Positions 910-12,817 are shown, numbered from the stretch's first letter. The stretch: DNA of 64,000 bases from Shewanella frigidimarina (GCF_003797125.1 NZ_RKKE01000003.1:124001-188000); one strand, 5' to 3'. Numbers and translations are program-made. The notes: generated by a model from the sequence alone, not told the origin.

Positions 910-1385
910 TCTAAAGCATACTTATGATTGTTCTAATTGTGAGTGTTAGAGCTCAGACACCAACACAATTTGGTCTAGAAGTGGGTTATCAAGCGTAACA
1001 GGACTCATCAACATTGATATCCACTCGGTTAATGGAGCGATAATTATATCGTCCCCAATAAGAACTCGCTCTAGATACCTATCATCGAATAGGCAATATT
1101 ATCCAACAACGTATCAGTTCATACGCCAATCTCAAAGTCGGATTAACTTTCGACCAAACAATAAAAGTACTATTGAAGTCTTTTTATTAACAACCGCTAT
1201 AGCATTTAATTCCAAACCTATTTATAAGTATGTTGCTTATATTTATAGCAAGCAGTCTATATAAAAGCTTATAATAATCAATGTGTTATTTTTAATGTTA
1301 AATTTCAATAATTAACAATGATACGACACAAGTTGTCGTGTTATTCGGTATAATAATAACCAACAAGAAGTTAATCGAGGTTTTT
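910..1385. other. AT-rich non-coding stretch before the unknown paralog pair
   Basis: No credible gene, RNA or strong repeat is seen here. The last 150 bases are very AT-rich, with TATAAT-like words near 1259-1264 and 1348-1353, so the promoter of the downstream module probably lies in this part. An open frame beginning with GTG at 1338 extends into this stretch, but the better start of the next gene is at 1386. Confidence 0.4.
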
Positions 1386-2318
1386 ATGGATGGTTTGGTA
1401 ACAGAGTCTGTCAATTTACTTACTTTTCTAGAGTTAGGGAAAGTACCAGATTATGAGCAATTAAAGCCTGAAGATATGGCGCGACTATTTCCAGAGCAAT
1501 GGTTAACCTTAACCGATGATTGGAACGGATTATATTATCATGCACAGCAAACCGCTGAGGGGTGGTACGATCATTTACTAGTTGCTCGAGTATTGCAAGA
1601 TGAAGCTTCACAAGCTCCGAATTCCGATATATTAGCTATTAAACAGTTAATCGTTTCACGTAATACTTATGAGGCTTATCAAGACTATCCTGCCTTATCG
1701 CAAGTGTTGGATATCTTTTATCGCAATGAAGACGGTTTTAAACGTAATTTTAGTGCGATTGCTGATGTAAATAGTTTCTTAATTGAAGAAGCTGAATCAT
1801 TACTCCAGTCGTTATTAGTGGCGTTTTCTGTGCAACAACCAAATATTGAATCACTCGATTGGGAAAATTATCAGCAAATGGCCGAAGCGATAAAGGATAA
1901 TTGTGAATTATTTTTTTCGAGTTACTTTAATCATTTGATCCTTGCCGCTGAATTACTTATACAGTTAAAACCTAATAGCGCTGTACTCAAGCAGGTTGCA
2001 CTTTGTTGGCCACCCTATGTATTGAGCTCAAGTACAGGAGAATTATTTTTTATCCGTAAGTTGCTAGCACATTGTTATAAAAACGAAGGCGTTGAATTTC
2101 TACTCGCTAATGTTGAGCACATAATGCCGGAGCATTTATTGTTTTTATTGGCTCAATCGTCAGCTTCTGACTGCATCATTATGAAAAAGGCCTTTACTGA
2201 TACATTTTCTGCACAAGGTTATTACCCTGGCGCCAATTGTTCTCTCCAAGTTTACGATGACTTTTTTACGTTAATCATTAACCGAAAATCTAAGAGGCTG
2301 ATAAATGATCATCTTTAA
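1386..2318 (+). CDS. Unknown protein A of a paralogous pair (possible defence module)
   Basis: 310 residues from the ATG at 1386, chosen because GAGG sits five bases upstream; a GTG at 1338 in the same frame lacks such a site. The protein is acidic and mostly helical by appearance, with no signal peptide, membrane segment or motif that I recognise. Its last third (QLKPNSAVLKQVAL, then FFIRKLLAHC, MPEHLLFLLAQ) lines up with the same part of the next gene product, so the two are diverged paralogs. The reading frame overlaps the next start by 14 bases, indicating translational coupling, and a WYL regulator follows in the same direction. Function unknown; location in a defence-rich island makes a phage-defence role an inference only. 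Confidence 0.75.
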   Translation: MDGLVTESVNLLTFLELGKVPDYEQLKPEDMARLFPEQWLTLTDDWNGLYYHAQQTAEGWYDHLLVARVLQDEASQAPNSDILAIKQLIVSRNTYEAYQDYPALSQVLDIFYRNEDGFKRNFSAIADVNSFLIEEAESLLQSLLVAFSVQQPNIESLDWENYQQMAEAIKDNCELFFSSYFNHLILAAELLIQLKPNSAVLKQVALCWPPYVLSSSTGELFFIRKLLAHCYKNEGVEFLLANVEHIMPEHLLFLLAQSSASDCIIMKKAFTDTFSAQGYYPGANCSLQVYDDFFTLIINRKSKRLINDHL

Positions 2319-3294
2319 ATTATTTAAAAAAGAAACTGAATCGTTATTGTCTCTCCTTGATGATGAGAATAAATTTGGCATTGGTTATTCAGAGCGTCCA
2401 AGTCTGACAGCGCGCGTATGGATCCAAGAATCTCAGGAGTTTGATTGGATTGATAATTTTCTGAGAGATGACGACAACAACCCGTGGGCCGAAGAATATG
2501 ATATGACATTATTGGTTCGTCTCGCATTAGATTGCTGGGAAAGTAAGCTTCCAAACCCAGCTAGAAATGTAAAAGCCCTTTGCGGTTCGCGCTCAGGAAA
2601 ATTCGCCATGGAAGAAGATTCACCTTTTTACAGCTTATGGACACTATTTCTCAATAGAAATGAATCATTGATGGATTTAATGTCAAAAAGCAGCGATCCC
2701 GCTTTGCAACCGAGTGTCTTACTCGAACAAGCAGAATTATTACTTGATGCGCATTATCTGACGATTCAAAGGTTAAATCGTTGCTATGGCGGAGATCCCC
2801 GCAGTTGTACTGAACATAAATGGTTTAAATCAAAATTACCCTTGCCGGTAGGGAAGAGTAAAACAAAGGCAAGTAGGTCAAATAAAGCCTTCAATCGGGA
2901 TTTTGTGCCTATAATGCTGGCGGCAAAAATAGTCATGCATTTTCATCCCCAAAGTAGCTTACTGCAAGCCTTAGCGCTTGCGCCAGAACATTACTCAGTT
3001 GGAGAATGGGGCTATGAATACTGGTTTCGCAGAACCTTGCAAAAACACTGTGCCATGCAGCAAGGTTGGTTATTTCTGTTGATGAACATGCCAAGGTTCG
3101 CACCTGAGGAATTAATGTATTTAATGAGCCGAGTCCCCGTTAGCGCCAATGAATGTGACACACTAATCGACGTATTTGAAGAATATTATGATGAAGATAC
3201 TCAAGAAAGAACAAAATATTGGTACCGAGATAAATCAGAATATATGGATTACTTTGAGAAATATTTTCAGGTAGGTTATCTGCTTAATCACTAA
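2305..3294 (+). CDS. Unknown protein B of a paralogous pair (possible defence module)
   Basis: 329 residues, starting inside the end of the previous gene (14-base overlap). The C-terminal third (MHFHPQSSLLQALALAP, YWFRRTLQKHC, FAPEELMYLMSRVP) parallels the corresponding part of protein A, with conserved spacing of leucines and of the PEEL/PEHL turn. The N-terminal part has a distinctive WAEEYDMTLLVRLALDCW stretch and a basic linker near residues 180-195 (KSKTKASRSNKAFN). No catalytic motif, signal peptide or membrane helix is seen. It is probably a structural or sensor partner of protein A. The WYL regulator begins 43 bases after its stop, so all three are likely one operon. Confidence 0.75.
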   Translation: MIIFKLFKKETESLLSLLDDENKFGIGYSERPSLTARVWIQESQEFDWIDNFLRDDDNNPWAEEYDMTLLVRLALDCWESKLPNPARNVKALCGSRSGKFAMEEDSPFYSLWTLFLNRNESLMDLMSKSSDPALQPSVLLEQAELLLDAHYLTIQRLNRCYGGDPRSCTEHKWFKSKLPLPVGKSKTKASRSNKAFNRDFVPIMLAAKIVMHFHPQSSLLQALALAPEHYSVGEWGYEYWFRRTLQKHCAMQQGWLFLLMNMPRFAPEELMYLMSRVPVSANECDTLIDVFEEYYDEDTQERTKYWYRDKSEYMDYFEKYFQVGYLLNH

Positions 3295-3337
3295 GTCTTT
3301 GTCGTGTCATGGTTCATCATTAGATTAAAGGTCTACT

Positions 3338-4363
3338 ATGTCTAAGAATAAAAATGCTAATACGCTTCTAAGGCAGCAAACATTACTTAAATTTATTCCT
3401 GCTAATGCGGGAATAAAAAGTGCTGATCTGCTCAACAAGCTTAAAAGTGAAGGGTTTGAGGTCACTCAACGCACATTGCAGAGAGATCTCGAAGTGCTGT
3501 CGCAGTACTTTTCTATTTATTCAGAAACAGACACAAAACCCTATCTATGGCGTTGGTCTGGTCTTGGTATCAATAGAACACATATCGACAGCATAAGTTT
3601 AACGGATGCATTGTCGTTAATGTTGGTAGAAAAGTCGCTACAGCAACTATTGCCTCCGGCGATGCAACGCCATTTACAACATAATTTTGAGCATTCGCGG
3701 CAGCTGTTAAACACCTTAAAAGATGATGATAATGCCCAATGGTTTGAAAAAGTTGCCAGTGTAATGCCAGATATTGGTTTTAAACCGCCATCAATCGATG
3801 AGAGTTTATTAACTGACATACAGGAAGCATTATTAAAAGACCAAACCATTGTAGTTAGTTATCTTGCAGCAAAAAACACAACAGCAGCTGAATATTTGCT
3901 TATGCCACTGGCCTTAGTGCAGCGAGGCCACGTGCTTTATGTTATTGCTCAAGATATCACTAAGGGTGCAACTACCGCACAAATCAAACGATTTGCCATG
4001 CACCGTTTTCAAACGGTAACCCGCATTCACGAACAAGGGATCCGTCCGCAAAATTTTAATCTTCAACAATATTTACAAGATGGTGCAATGCAATTTGGCA
4101 ATGGTGACAAATTCGCACTCAAAGCAAAAGTGACCGAAGAACTGGCCTTTATTTTGAACGAAAGCCCTATGTCAGATGATATGAAGATTATCCAATCAGA
4201 GGATGAAACATATCAACTCAGTGCCACAGTCAATAATGGTTGGCAACTAAACTGGTGGCTAAGGGGGCAAGGCGCAAACATTGAGGTACTAGAGCCACAA
4301 GAGCTTCGAGCTCGAATGCGTGACAATTTACGTAAAACGATGGAAATTTACGGGCCTTCATAA
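3338..4363 (+). CDS. WYL-domain transcriptional regulator
   Basis: 341 residues. Residues about 8-60 form a DeoR-like winged helix-turn-helix (LLKFIPANAGIKSADLLNKL, then TQRTLQRDLEVLSQYF). The middle (about 160-240) fits a WYL ligand-sensing domain, with a beta-rich YLLMPLALVQRGHVLYVIAQ followed by KRFAMHRFQTVTRI. The remainder is the WCX-type C-terminal extension. Proteins of this build (BrxR/CapW type) commonly repress defence operons and are thought to sense nucleic-acid or nucleotide signals. It lies 43 bases after the paralog pair and 166 bases before the JAB gene, all on the plus strand. The order suggests that it controls this module. The family call is firm; target and ligand are inferred. 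Confidence 0.88.
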   Translation: MSKNKNANTLLRQQTLLKFIPANAGIKSADLLNKLKSEGFEVTQRTLQRDLEVLSQYFSIYSETDTKPYLWRWSGLGINRTHIDSISLTDALSLMLVEKSLQQLLPPAMQRHLQHNFEHSRQLLNTLKDDDNAQWFEKVASVMPDIGFKPPSIDESLLTDIQEALLKDQTIVVSYLAAKNTTAAEYLLMPLALVQRGHVLYVIAQDITKGATTAQIKRFAMHRFQTVTRIHEQGIRPQNFNLQQYLQDGAMQFGNGDKFALKAKVTEELAFILNESPMSDDMKIIQSEDETYQLSATVNNGWQLNWWLRGQGANIEVLEPQELRARMRDNLRKTMEIYGPS

Positions 4364-4529
4364 AATTAGTGATCTTAGTATTACTCCAAATACTCATTTG
4401 TATCTAATGAATGGTTAGATGCGGACATATCAGAATTTCCCTAAATTTGTGTCAAAAAATTAGGGCATAAAAGTGACTTAAGTTATTCTTAACAAGGTTT
4501 ATATTTTTATATGTATAACAAGGAGATAG

Positions 4530-5243
4530 TTGATTAAAAATTATACTGCAAGCAATCCAATTAGAATTATTGTCGAAGATCAAGTTCTTCCTGTACTCAT
4601 GTCATCAGCTATCGAAGCTTTTGATCATGAGCATAAAACGCCTAGAGGGAAAGCCTCTTCTGGGCTTGAAACATATGGATTACTTTGGGGTTACGTTATT
4701 CCCTCAAAAAGTGAAGATAGCGCGAGCAAAATTATTGTCACAACTGCGACAATTGAGACTTCTGCTGTTCGTCATCAGGATTGGGTCCAGCCAAATTTAG
4801 AAAGTGTTGAAGCAAAAAAAGAGCTAATTGAACAGTATTGGCCTCATCTAGAATTAGTCGGTACCTTTCATTCACATCCTTATGAATCACTTAATGATGT
4901 AAAAGAAGTCAAAGGATGGCGAGCTTCTGAAGGCGATCGAGAACATTGGCCTCATATTCATGAGCAAATTGTTTCAAAACAACCGCTGATGGCTCACTTA
5001 ATTTTTACCGTTACCGAATTGAAAAAGAGCGGCTGGGCCTTTCCAACAGAAATTGAGGGCAAAAATCACAGTGGACTATCTTTCACCGCAGGTAAAAAGA
5101 AACTTTGGTTAAACTCATATACCAGCGTTTGTATTAAACACGAAAGTGAAGACGGTGAAATTGAATCTAAATTTACGATGCATGAAGGCCCTATAAAACT
5201 TGATGCTCCAGCATTATCCCGCCGTATGTTAGACAATAACTAA
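4530..5243 (+). CDS. JAB/MPN (JAMM) domain metalloprotease-like protein
   Basis: 237 residues from a TTG start at 4530, which follows AGGAG at 4521-4525; no ATG is better placed. The JAMM zinc-protease signature is complete: an upstream glutamate in GLETYGLLWGYV near residue 46, then GTFHSHP near 112-118, followed by S-x-x-D in ASEGDRE near 130-134. Such enzymes cleave isopeptide or peptide bonds; bacterial members act with ubiquitin-like or E1/E2-like partners, as in type II CBASS. No E1, E2 or ubiquitin-like gene is present here, so this is an orphan. It may belong to the WYL-regulated module upstream or stand alone behind its own promoter in the 166-base gap. Confidence 0.85.
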   Translation: MIKNYTASNPIRIIVEDQVLPVLMSSAIEAFDHEHKTPRGKASSGLETYGLLWGYVIPSKSEDSASKIIVTTATIETSAVRHQDWVQPNLESVEAKKELIEQYWPHLELVGTFHSHPYESLNDVKEVKGWRASEGDREHWPHIHEQIVSKQPLMAHLIFTVTELKKSGWAFPTEIEGKNHSGLSFTAGKKKLWLNSYTSVCIKHESEDGEIESKFTMHEGPIKLDAPALSRRMLDNN

Positions 5244-5567: not shown

Positions 5568-5636
5568 ATGACCAATCTAGCTGCAAAACTTGCATTTCAA
5601 AACGACATTATCGCTCAAAGAAGGTTTTTAAAATGA
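5568..5636 (+). pseudogene. 22-codon fragment resembling the start of hsdR
   Basis: A small open frame reads MTNLAAKLAFQNDIIAQ followed by RRFLK and a stop that overlaps the next ATG by four bases (ATGA). The LAFQNDIIAQ segment closely matches LTFQNDIITQ at the start of the hsdR remnant at 8255, in bases as well as residues. I read it as the first codons of a former type I restriction subunit, or a leader peptide derived from one, now coupled to the DUF6361 gene. The alternative is a real short upstream peptide providing the AGAAGG site for the next gene. Confidence 0.45.
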
Positions 5637-6286
5637 GTCAATTAGGATGGGTCGATTTTTCATCGGATGAACGCAATAAAGTCAAGTTGGTCTTAGCCGC
5701 TTTGAATGAGCCTGGTACGCTGGATGAGTTGGGTATTGGGCAGATCCGTGATGCTTTTGCTAATCGTCTATTTCCAGGCCTTTCAACCATTCAAACACGG
5801 GCAAAATATTTTATTACTATTGCTCGATTACTGCGTGACATCCAAAACGGTAAAGCCAAGAAGCCCAGAAACCCGCACCTCTGGTTGGAGCAGCAGGAGC
5901 ATTTGCTTGCCGAGGCCTTGGTCAGAATTCACGGTGGCGTAGAGAACGGGATTATTGGTGCCGAAAGTATTGCAAATGGAGGTGTTGGTCGGCGGCCATC
6001 GAGTATTTATTGGAATGGCTTAAAAACTTTTGGCATTGTTAAATCCACATTGTCATTGCATGAATTTTGCACTGCGTTGGCCAAAAACGAACATATGCCT
6101 TATATCGCAAACTCAGACCATCAAGAAGGCAAAGATGATGATGATGATGTTCATTTGACCAAGCGGTGGATAGAGTTGCCTGATCAGATTGATAACTGGC
6201 AGGCCGATGACAACTTAAAAATTTCGATGGCTATGAAGCTGTTTTTACAACGATCAAGGGCGTTTGTGATCATAGTTTTTCGGTAA
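5633..6286 (+). pseudogene. DUF6361-like protein, 3' truncated by deletion
   Basis: The start MSQLGWVDFSSDERNKV, followed by DELGIGQIRDAFANRLFPG and STIQTRAKYF, is the pattern I associate with DUF6361 proteins, which I recall beside helicase and phospholipase D-like genes in presumed defence loci. About 200 residues are intact, then the frame runs into a short out-of-family tail (FLQRSRAFVIIVFR). At the same place a different frame continues as the middle of a helicase, so the expected C-terminal part of this protein and the front of the helicase gene appear to have been lost in one deletion around 6205-6215. The truncated product may still be made. Confidence 0.65.
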
Positions 6287-8247
6287 AAGATATTCATGCT
6301 TTTAAGGCAATGGATACTGTTGGTACAGCATTACAAGAAATCAGCAAAGGGCACTATCGGGGCCAGTTGATGGAGTTTTATAAGGCGACGCCTTGGGCCC
6401 TTTCTTTTTTAAGCGGCTATCAATTTAAAAAACAATTAGATTATCACGGACAAGATCTAATTGTCAGAAAAGCGCTCAGAGGTTCTTCTGCTGCTTGGTT
6501 GTCTAGAAAAGCCATCTCGGACTACAGCCTTAAACTTAGCGATGCACCCCATGCCAAAATTAAAGCGCTCACAGAGCGTTTGTTTAATACAAAAAGTGAG
6601 CAATTGCTATGGGTGCCGCCATCGTTAACGCATTACTCATTGCAGGGTTGTTTTGAAGGCCAAGAACGGTTTAGTAAAACGCTACTGTTTTCATCTTGGG
6701 CTGTGGTACCTCGTGCGTTAAGTGGACTAATTTCATACGAGGCCGAGCGTCGACTTGCAATGCAAACTAGAAAGGCTAAGCGCGATTATTATCGGACTCA
6801 CTCACCAAAAATTAAATTTGATCAGTCGGGAAGCTTATCCGGCTGGTCGTTAATTTATCCAGCTCAGACCTTAATTAAATTTGACCTCAACTATGTAGAA
6901 AAGTCTAAGCAACAATCGCTGCCAGCTATTTTAAAGACTCAAAGCCAGTACTTTACAGAACAATTAAAAATGCTGACTGTTTTTGCTGACGGTCGAAGTA
7001 GCGGAGATCGATGGTATGCCCTTGCTCCCATGTTACTTGATCGCGAAAATGGATTTGATGGCGTATTAAAAACATGGCTTGAGAAACTTCCAAATGAAGG
7101 TAGTGTCCATTCTGGCAGCGCCCAGGGCGTAGAAATAATCCGTTATTTAGATATGGGCCATGATTTAAAGTTAGGCCCTATGCCAGCAGATCTGCCTGAG
7201 TATCTTGCTTATTTATCAGTAGCAGGACCTGCAATTTGCATTGCACGTAGCTGGAAAAGGCTTTGGCCAGAAGCTGACGAACAAGATATTTTACAAGCAT
7301 CTACCAAGGCCTCCGTATCGGCTATCTCGCTTTTTAATAAAGCAGAATCTGAAGCTATTCTTCATTCGCTTTATGGAAAAAGGAAATACTTTAGTGCTGT
7401 TGCCCACTACTGCGCGGAAGGTGATTTTCAGGCTGTAGTAGATGAGTACGGGCACATGCTCGCTGAACTTGAAATTGGTATAGCGACCAATAAGCTAGCC
7501 AGTGTGTTGGGATTTAGTACAACACAAATTAATTGCCAGTTTGAAGAAGATAAGTTGAAGGACGGTACTAAAACATCCGGCAATCAGAAACAAACAGCTA
7601 GACATAGCCTGCGCTGTCACTATGCCGTCCCCTTGGGTAATCAAGCTCTAACTAATGAGGATGGACTAAGTCGTATTAGCGATGTACGTGATGCCTTTAA
7701 CTCACCTTTTAGGCCCTTCATGTTGAATTCCACCTCTATTGGCCAAGAAGGGCTGGATTTTCATTGGTATTGCAGGCAAATCGTGCACTGGAATTTACCC
7801 AGTAATCCGATTGACATCGAGCAACGCGAAGGGCGAGTGAATAGATACAAATCACTTGTCGTCCGTAATCGAATTGCTCAAGCGTATGGCCATCAAACTC
7901 TTACGGCATCTAGTGATCCTTGGAGTGAGCTATTTGAAACTGCAGATAATGAAACGAAGAGAGGGCGACAAAGTGACTTAGTTCCTTACTGGCACTACCC
8001 CGACGGTGACTCAACCATCGAGCGCTATGTACCTATGATGCCGATGAGTAAGGAGGTCGCTAAACTTGAAAATGCATTAAAAGTGCTCGTTCATTATCGG
8101 CTTGCTTTTGGCCAACCAAGGCAGGAAGAGTTGCTGAACAATGTGTTGCACCGTGAATTTAATGATGAGCAAATAAATTTAATAAAAGAAGCTTTGGTGA
8201 TCAATTTGTCACCACTAATGCATCAAGTAAACGAGACAATTTCTTAG
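6211..8247 (+). pseudogene. Superfamily 2 / SNF2-like helicase lacking its N-terminal ATPase half
   Basis: The frame is open from 6211 (after a TGA at 6208) to 8247; the first ATG, at 6310, would give 645 residues. The C-terminal helicase half is present: FSSWAVVPRALSG resembles the motif IV region, FMLNSTSIGQEGLDFHWYC and QIVHWNLPSNP motif V, and DIEQREGRVNRYKS motif VI with both arginines. Walker A (motif I) and the DEAD/DEAH motif II are absent, so ATP-driven activity is not expected from this piece. The bases between 6211 and 6310 encode matching helicase sequence (GYEAVFTTIKGVCDH) in frame, which shows that the present ATG is not the original start. It is the other side of the deletion that truncated the DUF6361 gene. 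C-terminal residues after 560 are of unknown role. Confidence 0.8.
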
Positions 8248-8836: not shown

Positions 8837-9565
8837 TTAACGGGTACCGTTATCGGTTATGCAGGATTCAAAATGTTGCACGAAATTTTTTACAATTTCT
8901 ATTGTGTTAATAACACCTTCACGAGTTGGAGTGGAGTTGTCACCCCGCGTGCTTACACCATTTCGATGCACTATGTCATGCCTTATCTTAAAAACTTTAT
9001 CTAGTGCTTTAAAGTCATATTTAAACGGCTTACTAAAAATGTCACGGTATGTTTTTTGTATACTTTCTCTACTATGGAATGAAATATTAGCTATTGAAAA
9101 TGTAACTAAATCTTTCACTGGATTTTCGTGACGCTCCATTTGTTTCAAAGTGAAGTGTTTTGGGTTATTTCTATCCGAATAAACAGTTATGATATTCGAT
9201 AGATACTGCTTATTATTTGATATTAAAGCAATAAAACTACTGGCCAGAAAAGATTCTAGAAGAGTCACTATGTGTGCGTGGGTCATTTTAAATATCATTG
9301 GTTCAGTATGAGCCGATGTTTCTAATTTTAATATTTCTTGTATTTTTTCAATGTCCAACATGAAGTGAGAATATAATTCTGAAGTGTTTTGAGACTCATA
9401 CCAACTTATTTCTTCAAAATGCTCCTGTTGATTATGCCACTCCTCCACAAATTCATACCATTCATCACTAGTTTCATCTATGTTAGCACTATCACATTGT
9501 TCATAAATCCATTCCCTCATTTTTTCCTCTTGAACATCCAAGTATAGTTCGCTCATTGATCCCAT
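8837..9565 (-). CDS. HEPN-domain protein (putative RNase)
   Basis: 242 residues. The C-terminal region has KVFKIRHDIVHRNG near 200-213, which contains the R-x4-H (RHDIVH) motif of the HEPN nuclease superfamily; the upstream helices (HIVTLLESFLASSFIALI) fit the helical bundle. The N-terminal 90 residues are highly acidic (repeated E and W). GGAG lies seven bases before the ATG. HEPN proteins cut RNA in toxin-antitoxin, abortive-infection and RES-type systems, but many lone HEPN proteins of this size are uncharacterised. No nucleotidyltransferase (MNT) partner is adjacent. It is transcribed against the surrounding remnants and appears intact, unlike them. Confidence 0.75.
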   Translation of the reverse strand: MGSMSELYLDVQEEKMREWIYEQCDSANIDETSDEWYEFVEEWHNQQEHFEEISWYESQNTSELYSHFMLDIEKIQEILKLETSAHTEPMIFKMTHAHIVTLLESFLASSFIALISNNKQYLSNIITVYSDRNNPKHFTLKQMERHENPVKDLVTFSIANISFHSRESIQKTYRDIFSKPFKYDFKALDKVFKIRHDIVHRNGVSTRGDNSTPTREGVINTIEIVKNFVQHFESCITDNGTR

Positions 9566-10675: not shown

Positions 10676-11080
10676 TTGTACTGTTGGAAACCTATAAAAG
10701 TGTTAAATGCCGATGCATTAAGGAATGCACTAGAGCGTATGGATGGTCATTTTATTCAAGGTGTCGGTGATGGTGTTGTTGAAGCTGAAATTAAGCCCGA
10801 TGAAGAAGCGCTGCAACAAGCAAAGCAATTTCTACAACATGCTGACTCAGCAATCAATTCACATATTCAGCGGGTTGCTAATTTAATTGATGGCTATCAA
10901 TCTCCCTATGGTGTTGAGTTACTGTCAACTGTGCATTGGGTTATTAAAAATGAAGGTGCGCAAACACCAGAGCAAGCATTCTATTTGATCCAGCAGTGGA
11001 ATGAGCGTAAAAAACAATTGATGACACAGCAACATGTAAATGCCGCTTGGGTTCAATTAGCACAACAAAATTGGATTTAA
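10676..11080 (+). pseudogene. darG: 3' part of darG (DNA ADP-ribosylglycohydrolase antitoxin)
   Basis: The frame reads ALRNALERMDGHFIQGVGDG, then LIDGYQSPYGVELLSTVHWV and IQQWNERKKQLMTQQHVNAA, which match the C-terminal domain of DarG-type macrodomain antitoxins. The catalytic macrodomain (first ~160 residues) and the connecting segment are absent; recognisable sequence starts around residue 10 of this frame and no credible start codon or ribosome binding site precedes it. The darT toxin gene, normally upstream, is also missing. I infer a lost DarTG system truncated next to the IS91 remnant. Confidence 0.7.
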
Positions 11081-11509: not shown

Positions 11510-12817
11510 TTATTTAATCTCAGCAAGATGATTTAACGGTTTATTGAATGCGCTTTGATGTCGTTCAGTTTGTGTGGTGTGTAAATACTGTGATGTTGTG
11601 TCGATGCTCTCATGACCGGCATCGGCCTGGACATGTGACAATGGTCGACGATTGATATTGATGTCATGCGTGATCCCAGTGTGGCGAATATTATGCGCAC
11701 TGAGTTTTCGCATAAGTTGGCTGTCGTGTTCAAAACCATCTTTAGCTGCATTGTCTGCAGCTAAGTTAATCAGTTTGTCTATTTCGTCACGTATGTGTCG
11801 AATACCAAGATTGGCATTGATGACTCCAGATTCACGTCCATGGGCTGCTGCTTTGTGACGGACAAATATAGGATGTTGATCGTTGATGTTGGGTAAATCA
11901 CTGAGACGCAGATAACGTCGATAATCAACTAGTCCAGCCAGCAATGCTTTTGATATGGCAATATTACGTGCTTTGCCGCTTTTAGAAAATGGCACGTGAA
12001 AATACCAGACACCAGAATGTGGATCTTGTCTAAACTGGCTCATGATGGGCGCGTAACCTGCACGTGCACTGATCTCGGAGATTCGTAAGTAACAGCTATA
12101 TAATAGTGTAATGAGGAATAAACTGCGTTGATGCTGCTCTGGTTGAGTGTCTGCAAGCTGGCTTACGGTGCTTATAACATAAGACCATTGTAACTCTGTA
12201 AAGGCATGATGGTTGTTGTCTTCGTCGATGGTAAATTTACGTTTAATAGCAAAACGACTGTGTTTTAACCATAACTGAGCCGGGTTACGCTCGGTATATT
12301 CTTCACTAATTAGGTAGCCATAAAATGATGATAATATTGCTATTTTAGTCTTCAGCGCATTATCACTCAGTTGATATGGTAGGCATTTCCCCAGGTGCTT
12401 TTTACCAATAAATGGCCGCCATTGTGGGTTTGGTGAACGCTCCCCAGTGGCTTTATTGAGTTTGAATTGCGCTACATTGAAATAGCCTATTAGTGTTTGT
12501 GGCGGCGATTGGCAGTAATCAATGTATTTGGCGATGTCTTTACGCGTTACCGCAATTGGCGATAATGCGACTACGTCAAAACACCAATGCAGAAATGTGG
12601 TTAACTCACTGCGGTAGGCTTTATAGTTGTTTTCTGACTGCTTTTGCTCAAATAACCAATCGGCACAGTGCTCTATAATGAGTCCTGCATCGGCAACTTT
12701 ATCTATTGAAATTCGGGTAATGTACTGATTAACGGACGCATTACCTTGTAATACATACTCTGCAGCATCAAATAGTGGTAATACTGGTGGCAGTTCATCA
12801 GTGATATTTTTGGTCAT
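11510..12817 (-). CDS. Tyrosine recombinase / phage-type integrase
   Basis: 435 residues. The catalytic set is complete: arginine I in SCYLRISEISA near residue 240, the HxxR box in AHNIRHTGI near 373-381, then GHESIDTTSQYLHTT with the second histidine and the tyrosine nucleophile near 400-411. The N-terminal half (EQKQSENNYKAYRSELTTFL) is the core-binding domain. It is longer than XerC/D (about 300) and close to large integrases of genomic islands and integrating elements. The gene points back toward the defence island, as expected for an integrase at an island edge. The stop is 'TAA' at 11510-11512. Which element it mobilises and whether it is still active cannot be told. Confidence 0.93.
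   Translation of the reverse strand: MTKNITDELPPVLPLFDAAEYVLQGNASVNQYITRISIDKVADAGLIIEHCADWLFEQKQSENNYKAYRSELTTFLHWCFDVVALSPIAVTRKDIAKYIDYCQSPPQTLIGYFNVAQFKLNKATGERSPNPQWRPFIGKKHLGKCLPYQLSDNALKTKIAILSSFYGYLISEEYTERNPAQLWLKHSRFAIKRKFTIDEDNNHHAFTELQWSYVISTVSQLADTQPEQHQRSLFLITLLYSCYLRISEISARAGYAPIMSQFRQDPHSGVWYFHVPFSKSGKARNIAISKALLAGLVDYRRYLRLSDLPNINDQHPIFVRHKAAAHGRESGVINANLGIRHIRDEIDKLINLAADNAAKDGFEHDSQLMRKLSAHNIRHTGITHDININRRPLSHVQADAGHESIDTTSQYLHTTQTERHQSAFNKPLNHLAEIK

Follow-up and report, generated by a model that had tools for sequence, protein, structure and literature searches.

A candidate inducible defence module of Shewanella with a helical protein, a WYL regulator and an exchangeable predicted protease

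Do four intact genes that lie among broken neighbours in Shewanella frigidimarina belong together, and what would they do? The question was addressed for a window of 64,000 nucleotides, the whole stretch of DNA analysed here (GCF_003797125.1 NZ_RKKE01000003.1:124001-188000). An earlier note, made from this DNA alone, had described two diverged paralogues (genes A and B), a WYL-domain regulator and a lone JAB/MPN metalloprotease of the JAMM type as a possible undescribed defence module. We find that A, B and the WYL gene are well supported as one operon, and that in all five loci carrying B the gene after the WYL gene encodes a predicted protease, albeit of different folds. We read the locus as a small defence-type module that is inducible, has a slot for exchangeable proteases and travels as cargo of defence islands, with a predicted anti-phage role; its chances of being right and wrong are, in our view, about equal. 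All four genes are intact, as had been noted, and are listed here together with the two predicted promoter elements.

1323 to 1339, plus strand: predicted WYL operator, the 17-bp palindrome ACGACACAAGTTGTCGT; the sole match without mismatch in the 64-kb window, with counterparts in 5 of 5 loci.
1349 to 1354, plus strand: predicted -10 box TATAAT, 9 nt past the palindrome and without a -35 element at the expected place.
1386 to 2318, plus strand: gene A, a helical protein of 310 amino acids, paralogue of B; ATG start; found only in the window and in S. hafniensis.
2305 to 3294, plus strand: gene B, a predicted alpha-solenoid protein of 329 amino acids; undescribed family, five Shewanella species only.
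3338 to 4363, plus strand: WYL transcription regulator with helix-turn-helix (HTH), WYL and WCX domains, of the DriD/PafBC type by Pfam WYL and WCX and by PDB matches; subfamily exclusive to the B loci.
4530 to 5243, plus strand: JAB/MPN+ (JAMM) metalloprotease, occupying the exchangeable slot; zinc-site residues complete.

Genes A and B overlap by 14 bases, and B is separated from the WYL gene by 43 bases. The JAB open reading frame starts with TTG, with AGGAG just 5' of it, and follows the WYL gene after 167 bp.

Gene B was found in five loci, all from Shewanella: the window, S. hafniensis ATCC BAA-1207 (G029), S. fodinae (G037), S. decolorationis S12 (G045) and G024. The earlier note had considered that homologues of A and B might lie mostly without WYL or JAB neighbours; instead, a WYL gene lies directly 3' of B in every locus. 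These five WYL proteins scored 569-639 bits with a profile built from the same five sequences, so that what counts is their distance from the next-best WYL of 129 Shewanella genomes, which reached 195 bits. Because this next WYL scores far lower, B and its own WYL subfamily are strictly linked. WYLs from other, more remote families had no A/B-like neighbours among the matches listed, and the B profile gave no match among the open reading frames at their loci.

The ratio of nonsynonymous to synonymous substitution rates (dN/dS) between the window and S. hafniensis was 0.07-0.23 for A, B and WYL and 0.07-0.24 over every gene tested. As these values are well below 1, the three genes are under selection, which argues that they are functional. 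DNA identity between the two loci formed a mosaic, with 83-95% in B, 46-71% in A and 54-87% in WYL. Since dS was 0.25 in B versus 1.8 in A and 2.8 (saturated) in WYL, B has probably been swapped in a recombination event whose borders lie close to the ends of the gene. Between window positions 2300-3340 and locus L008, which are otherwise diverged, a sharp block of about 90-95% DNA identity is limited to gene B and forms a recombination footprint.

The kinship of A and B proposed in the earlier note was confirmed. A profile built from B proteins alone matched A at an E value of about 8e-20, and thus the similarity is not due to chance. The two copies of A share 50% identity, and since three of the five loci carry B alone, A is dispensable. 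Library scans assigned neither protein to a Pfam, NCBIfam or PADLOC family, so that the pair is indeed undescribed there. The predicted model of B is an alpha-solenoid with a mean predicted local distance difference test (pLDDT) score of 70.5 and a core of 80-95. A fold search with this model returned generic helical-repeat matches only; therefore no known family is claimed for B, and a known fold is possible. Outside Shewanella, no homologue of B was found in viral contigs, plasmids and phages, in samples of the order and class, or when 84,980 species were scanned with a short pattern. The one weak match, in G407 (E 1e-3), was rejected because it is an NTPase/repeat protein whose surroundings are unrelated. 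The A/B family thus appears to be novel and, in everything searched, confined to Shewanella.

The gene following WYL encodes a predicted protease in 5 of 5 loci, with three unrelated folds and conserved active sites. In the window it is the JAB protein, whose zinc-site residues E47, H114, H116, S133 and D136 (E ... HxHP ... SxxD) are all present, as had been described; the E, H, H and D residues are invariant in 11 relatives. Its match to Pfam JAB (E 0.0015, score 18.7) lies below the cut-off of 22.5. S. fodinae carries another JAB 12 bp after WYL, with 25% identity to the window protein and the same zinc-site residues. In S. hafniensis the slot holds a C39/papain-like protein with the motifs GACGPYS, GGHWAV and LDPG, which contain Cys, His and Asp; it shares 38% identity with a protein from a P. 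luteola plasmid in which these motifs are preserved in substance. A caspase-like gene stands about 32 bp after WYL in G024 and G045, and its H82 and C115 are invariant in seven relatives. In the predicted model, H82 would end strand 74-81 and C115 strand 107-114, which is the caspase/CHAT layout. Foldseek matched this model to caspase-11 (E 3e-5) and SAVED-CHAT (E 1e-4). Rossmann-like receptor domains with a similar sheet scored equally with the caspases, and therefore the caspase assignment rests on fold and catalytic residues jointly. Sequence searches of the PDB with the JAB and caspase-like profiles yielded nothing usable. The JAB as an obligatory partner of A and B was rejected, because other proteases fill the same slot. 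The short gaps after WYL in S. fodinae, G024 and G045 make the arrangement operon-like there.

Next to the module, restriction genes are common. Type I restriction-modification (RM) genes follow it in all four B loci other than the window. Caspase-like relatives that lack A, B and WYL have hsd genes as neighbours in G004 and G032, while in G039 and G160 they immediately precede brxA of the bacteriophage exclusion (BREX) system. A JAB gene was found 3' of hsdR on a Marinomonas plasmid; no hsd gene is close to the JAB genes of Photobacterium and Thiodictyon plasmids. As background, a sample of 59 other regions upstream of hsdM in Shewanella was examined. None contained these proteases, A/B or this WYL, so that a protease at this spot is a rare background event. 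The cargo before hsdM in these other regions was varied and included integrases and toxin-antitoxin-like genes.

Several observations weigh against a module in which the protease takes part. The sample consists of five loci only, effectively four independent ones, from a single genus. The model of B is based on 7 sequences, and none of its fold matches is informative. The window genome gave no match to the N6-methyltransferase family PF02384 at 1e-20, and therefore a strict requirement for type I RM does not hold in the window; the tie between module and restriction is frequent but not obligatory. The closest relatives of the window JAB (60% in G015, 56% in G125) stand directly before hsdM without A, B or WYL. 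In the loci with both A and B (window and S. hafniensis) the protease begins 167 and about 250 bp past WYL without a palindrome of its own. Because of this long gap and missing palindrome, it could be separately transcribed there.

The main rival explanation draws on the same observations. A/B and WYL would be complete alone, as a regulator with a helical sensor or effector, and the protease would be an independent neighbour in the island. On this view, defence islands would in any case accumulate proteases beside hsd and BREX genes. The G015 and G125 relatives, the caspase-like relatives at hsd or BREX loci without B, the long gaps and the varied cargo before hsdM all fit this explanation. 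Against it, a protease occupies the same position in four of four independent loci, only 12 and 32 bp behind WYL in two lineages, while none of the 59 background regions holds one. We therefore regard an independent protease as rather unlikely, albeit as the alternative to be taken most seriously. For the JAB gene, which the earlier note had allowed to be independent, this caution holds in part, given the close relatives elsewhere. Because of these relatives and the 167-bp gap, its functional membership in the module is probable rather than firm.

The frequent contact with hsd genes also allows another role for the protease. It might tune restriction by degrading HsdR, similar to restriction alleviation of EcoKI by ClpXP. 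hsdM or hsdR adjoins the protease in many loci, and ClpXP provides a precedent (PMC12707154). However, no match to a type I methyltransferase was found in the window genome, the caspase-like relatives also occur at BREX, which has no HsdR, and small proteases without an ATPase are unlikely stand-ins for ClpXP. We consider this explanation very improbable.

The regulator was described in the earlier note as BrxR/CapW-like, and this part did not hold. Pfam recognised WYL at residues 157-228 (1.7e-8) and WCX at 261-334 (1.8e-12), and an ArgR-type HTH covers residues 11-53. The closest matched solved structures were Caulobacter crescentus DriD (PDB 8tp8, E 4e-5; PMC11804915) and PafC (E 2e-4), whereas the BrxR/CapW structures 7tb5 and 7qfz matched only at E 0.16 and 0.31. 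A positive control was available, since the G024 and G045 loci have a second WYL between the caspase-like gene and hsdM that is a true BrxR; the G024 copy matched BrxR at E 2e-124 and CapW at 8e-29. By its sequence, the window WYL is of the DriD/PafBC type.

In each of the five loci a palindrome lies 43-79 bp ahead of the first gene, with ACGACACAAGCTGTCGC, ACGACATCATTTGACGT and ACGACACCATTTGACGT as the counterparts of the window site. The chance expectation for it is about 1e-4 per 400-bp region. Outside the palindrome, the 400-bp upstream regions of the window, S. hafniensis and S. fodinae had no significant DNA in common. Read by eye, the palindrome is followed after 9 nt by TATAAT, TATAAT, TATTAT or CATCAT across the loci, and no -35 element was seen at the expected place in the module promoters. 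Scans for promoter consensus sequences remained at chance level and those for terminators were slightly above it; neither was used. DriD is an activator that acts on a 20-bp pseudo-palindrome, which in one studied promoter lies near the -10 element (PMC12340889). The window palindrome, a predicted operator, is likewise close to a -10 box, and binding of the WYL protein to this site would activate the operon. Sensing of single-stranded DNA (ssDNA) by the WYL protein is predicted as well. In S. decolorationis S12 (L011), the module promoter and the first B codons are duplicated, with 93% identity over 266 bp (5588-5852 and 9249-9514). The second promoter copy lies about 3.7 kb upstream, with Sir2-like and metallophosphoesterase-like genes between, which suggests an insertion or a decayed second copy.

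The constant neighbourhood of WYL and protease could also mean that the protease itself is a regulator. Once activated, it would cleave WYL or B, as CapP does with CapH, and release the module and the downstream restriction genes. CapP belongs to another protease family, though, and the families found in the slot also occur at hsd and BREX loci without a WYL of this kind. In addition, three unrelated folds would need one common regulator as target. In favour, WYL and protease are neighbours in 5 of 5 loci, and with CapH/CapP there is already one case in which a repressor and a protease together control an immune operon (PMC13373217). Taken together, regulation by the protease seems improbable to us, if less so than degradation of HsdR.

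We return to the inducible module with the protease as effector, for which the following mechanism is proposed. The module's own promoter has no -35 element, and the DriD/PafBC-like WYL protein would bind the palindrome next to its -10 box and turn the operon on when ssDNA appears during phage replication or restriction damage. B, together with A in some loci, may be an alpha-solenoid adaptor that responds to a signal of infection and either holds the protease or activates it. The protease in the slot, whether JAB, C39/papain-like or caspase-like, would then act as the effector, cutting host or phage proteins and stopping the infected cell. The module is mostly found at type I restriction loci and perhaps serves as their back-up. 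The earlier suggestion of a novel proteolytic sensing system is in part sustained: B, WYL and a predicted protease are linked in a setting of defence genes, but the JAB is not a fixed partner and A can be missing.

A more far-reaching interpretation, which we put forward tentatively, is a hitherto undescribed modular immune platform of A/B solenoid receptors and a dedicated ssDNA-type WYL switch, into which at least three unrelated protease folds plug as effectors. Bacteria would then swap the weapon and keep sensor and switch. Should the module function by the mechanism proposed above, proteases of unrelated folds can replace one another as effectors while a single sensor and switch stay constant, and DNA-damage-type WYL activators would be linked to proteolytic immunity. 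This would also hint at the reason for the repeated presence of solitary JAB, C39 and caspase-like genes at restriction and BREX loci. The module is small (about 4 kb) and has a visible promoter site.

The broken neighbours of the window module were largely as described before. It precedes Zac remnants (5633-8247), in which an internal deletion took the end of zacA, the phospholipase-D-like zacB and the start of zacC; ZacA and ZacC are thus truncated. DarG is a C-terminal remnant (10676-11080, E 2e-27), and the transposase was weakly confirmed (Y2_Tnp, E 0.017). A RiboL-PSP-HEPN gene lies on the minus strand at 8837-9565 and a phage-type integrase at 11510-12817. JAB, A, B and WYL were rejected as parts of Zac (PADLOC ZacABC), as an intact ZacA-B-C set in G131 is preceded by Wadjet-like genes and lacks all four.

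Other protease and hsdM loci were inspected as well. In L111 (7257-12837) and L112 (7170-12750) the caspase-like gene is directly 5' of brxA-brxB-brxC, with AAA-ATPase-like genes before it, and is a possible BREX accessory protease. In two Shewanella species (L114, 6919-9937; L115, 4304-7307) a shared set of three unknown genes (about 160, 263 and 268-293 amino acids) comes after JAB, possibly a separate four-gene cassette. Two plasmids (L089, 6974-12444; L087, 6992-11242) have a JAB gene and, a few genes away, an FtsZ-like gene, separated by a PcfJ-domain or Sir2 gene; these sets may represent another JAB-linked system. A pair of genes, one XRE-type (367 amino acids) and one of 164 amino acids, recurs before hsdM in several Shewanella genomes (L119, L120, L123, L125) and is thus a further repeated cargo at type I RM loci.

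Finally, the module was compared with known systems. DriD and PafBC have the same domain order of HTH, WYL and WCX; unlike them, the window WYL is encoded within a defence-type operon beside a protease. CapH/CapP and CapW/BrxR, from BREX and the cyclic-oligonucleotide-based antiphage signalling system (CBASS), also place a regulator beside defence genes, with a protease in the case of CapH/CapP. Here, in contrast, the regulator falls outside the BrxR/CapW family, the slot proteases are JAB, C39-like or caspase-like, and the window module has neither a CD-NTase nor BREX core genes. Pfam, NCBIfam and PADLOC scans found no CBASS CD-NTase among the flanking proteins. E1/E2-like families of Bil or ubiquitin-like conjugation were likewise absent among the flanking proteins scanned, in agreement with the earlier note. 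In MoxR-vWA ternary conflict systems, unrelated peptidases (caspase-like, trypsin-like and others) swap in one slot (PMC7159879). The exchange of peptidases in one slot of a conserved system is alike, but the module has no MoxR ATPase, vWA or VMAP, and its constant part is B plus WYL. The RptR island combines type I RM, DarTG2, an M48 peptidase and a dedicated regulator (PMC12255303). It resembles our loci in uniting regulator, type I RM, metallopeptidase and DarG (in the window a remnant) in one island; it differs in that the small repressor RptR has no relation to WYL, the peptidase is M48 and not JAB, and there is no A/B family. PrrC/RloC and PARIS accompany type I RM loci as accessory genes and are believed to act on failure of restriction (PMC12707154). 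The four B loci other than the window have a like position, whereas proteases and a solenoid protein stand here in place of RNases, a guard role would be presumed, and the window genome is without type I RM. No description of the A/B-WYL-protease gene set was found in the libraries or open-licence literature searched. In summary, exchangeable slot peptidases and a peptidase within a type I RM island are already known, and it is the A/B family that is novel.

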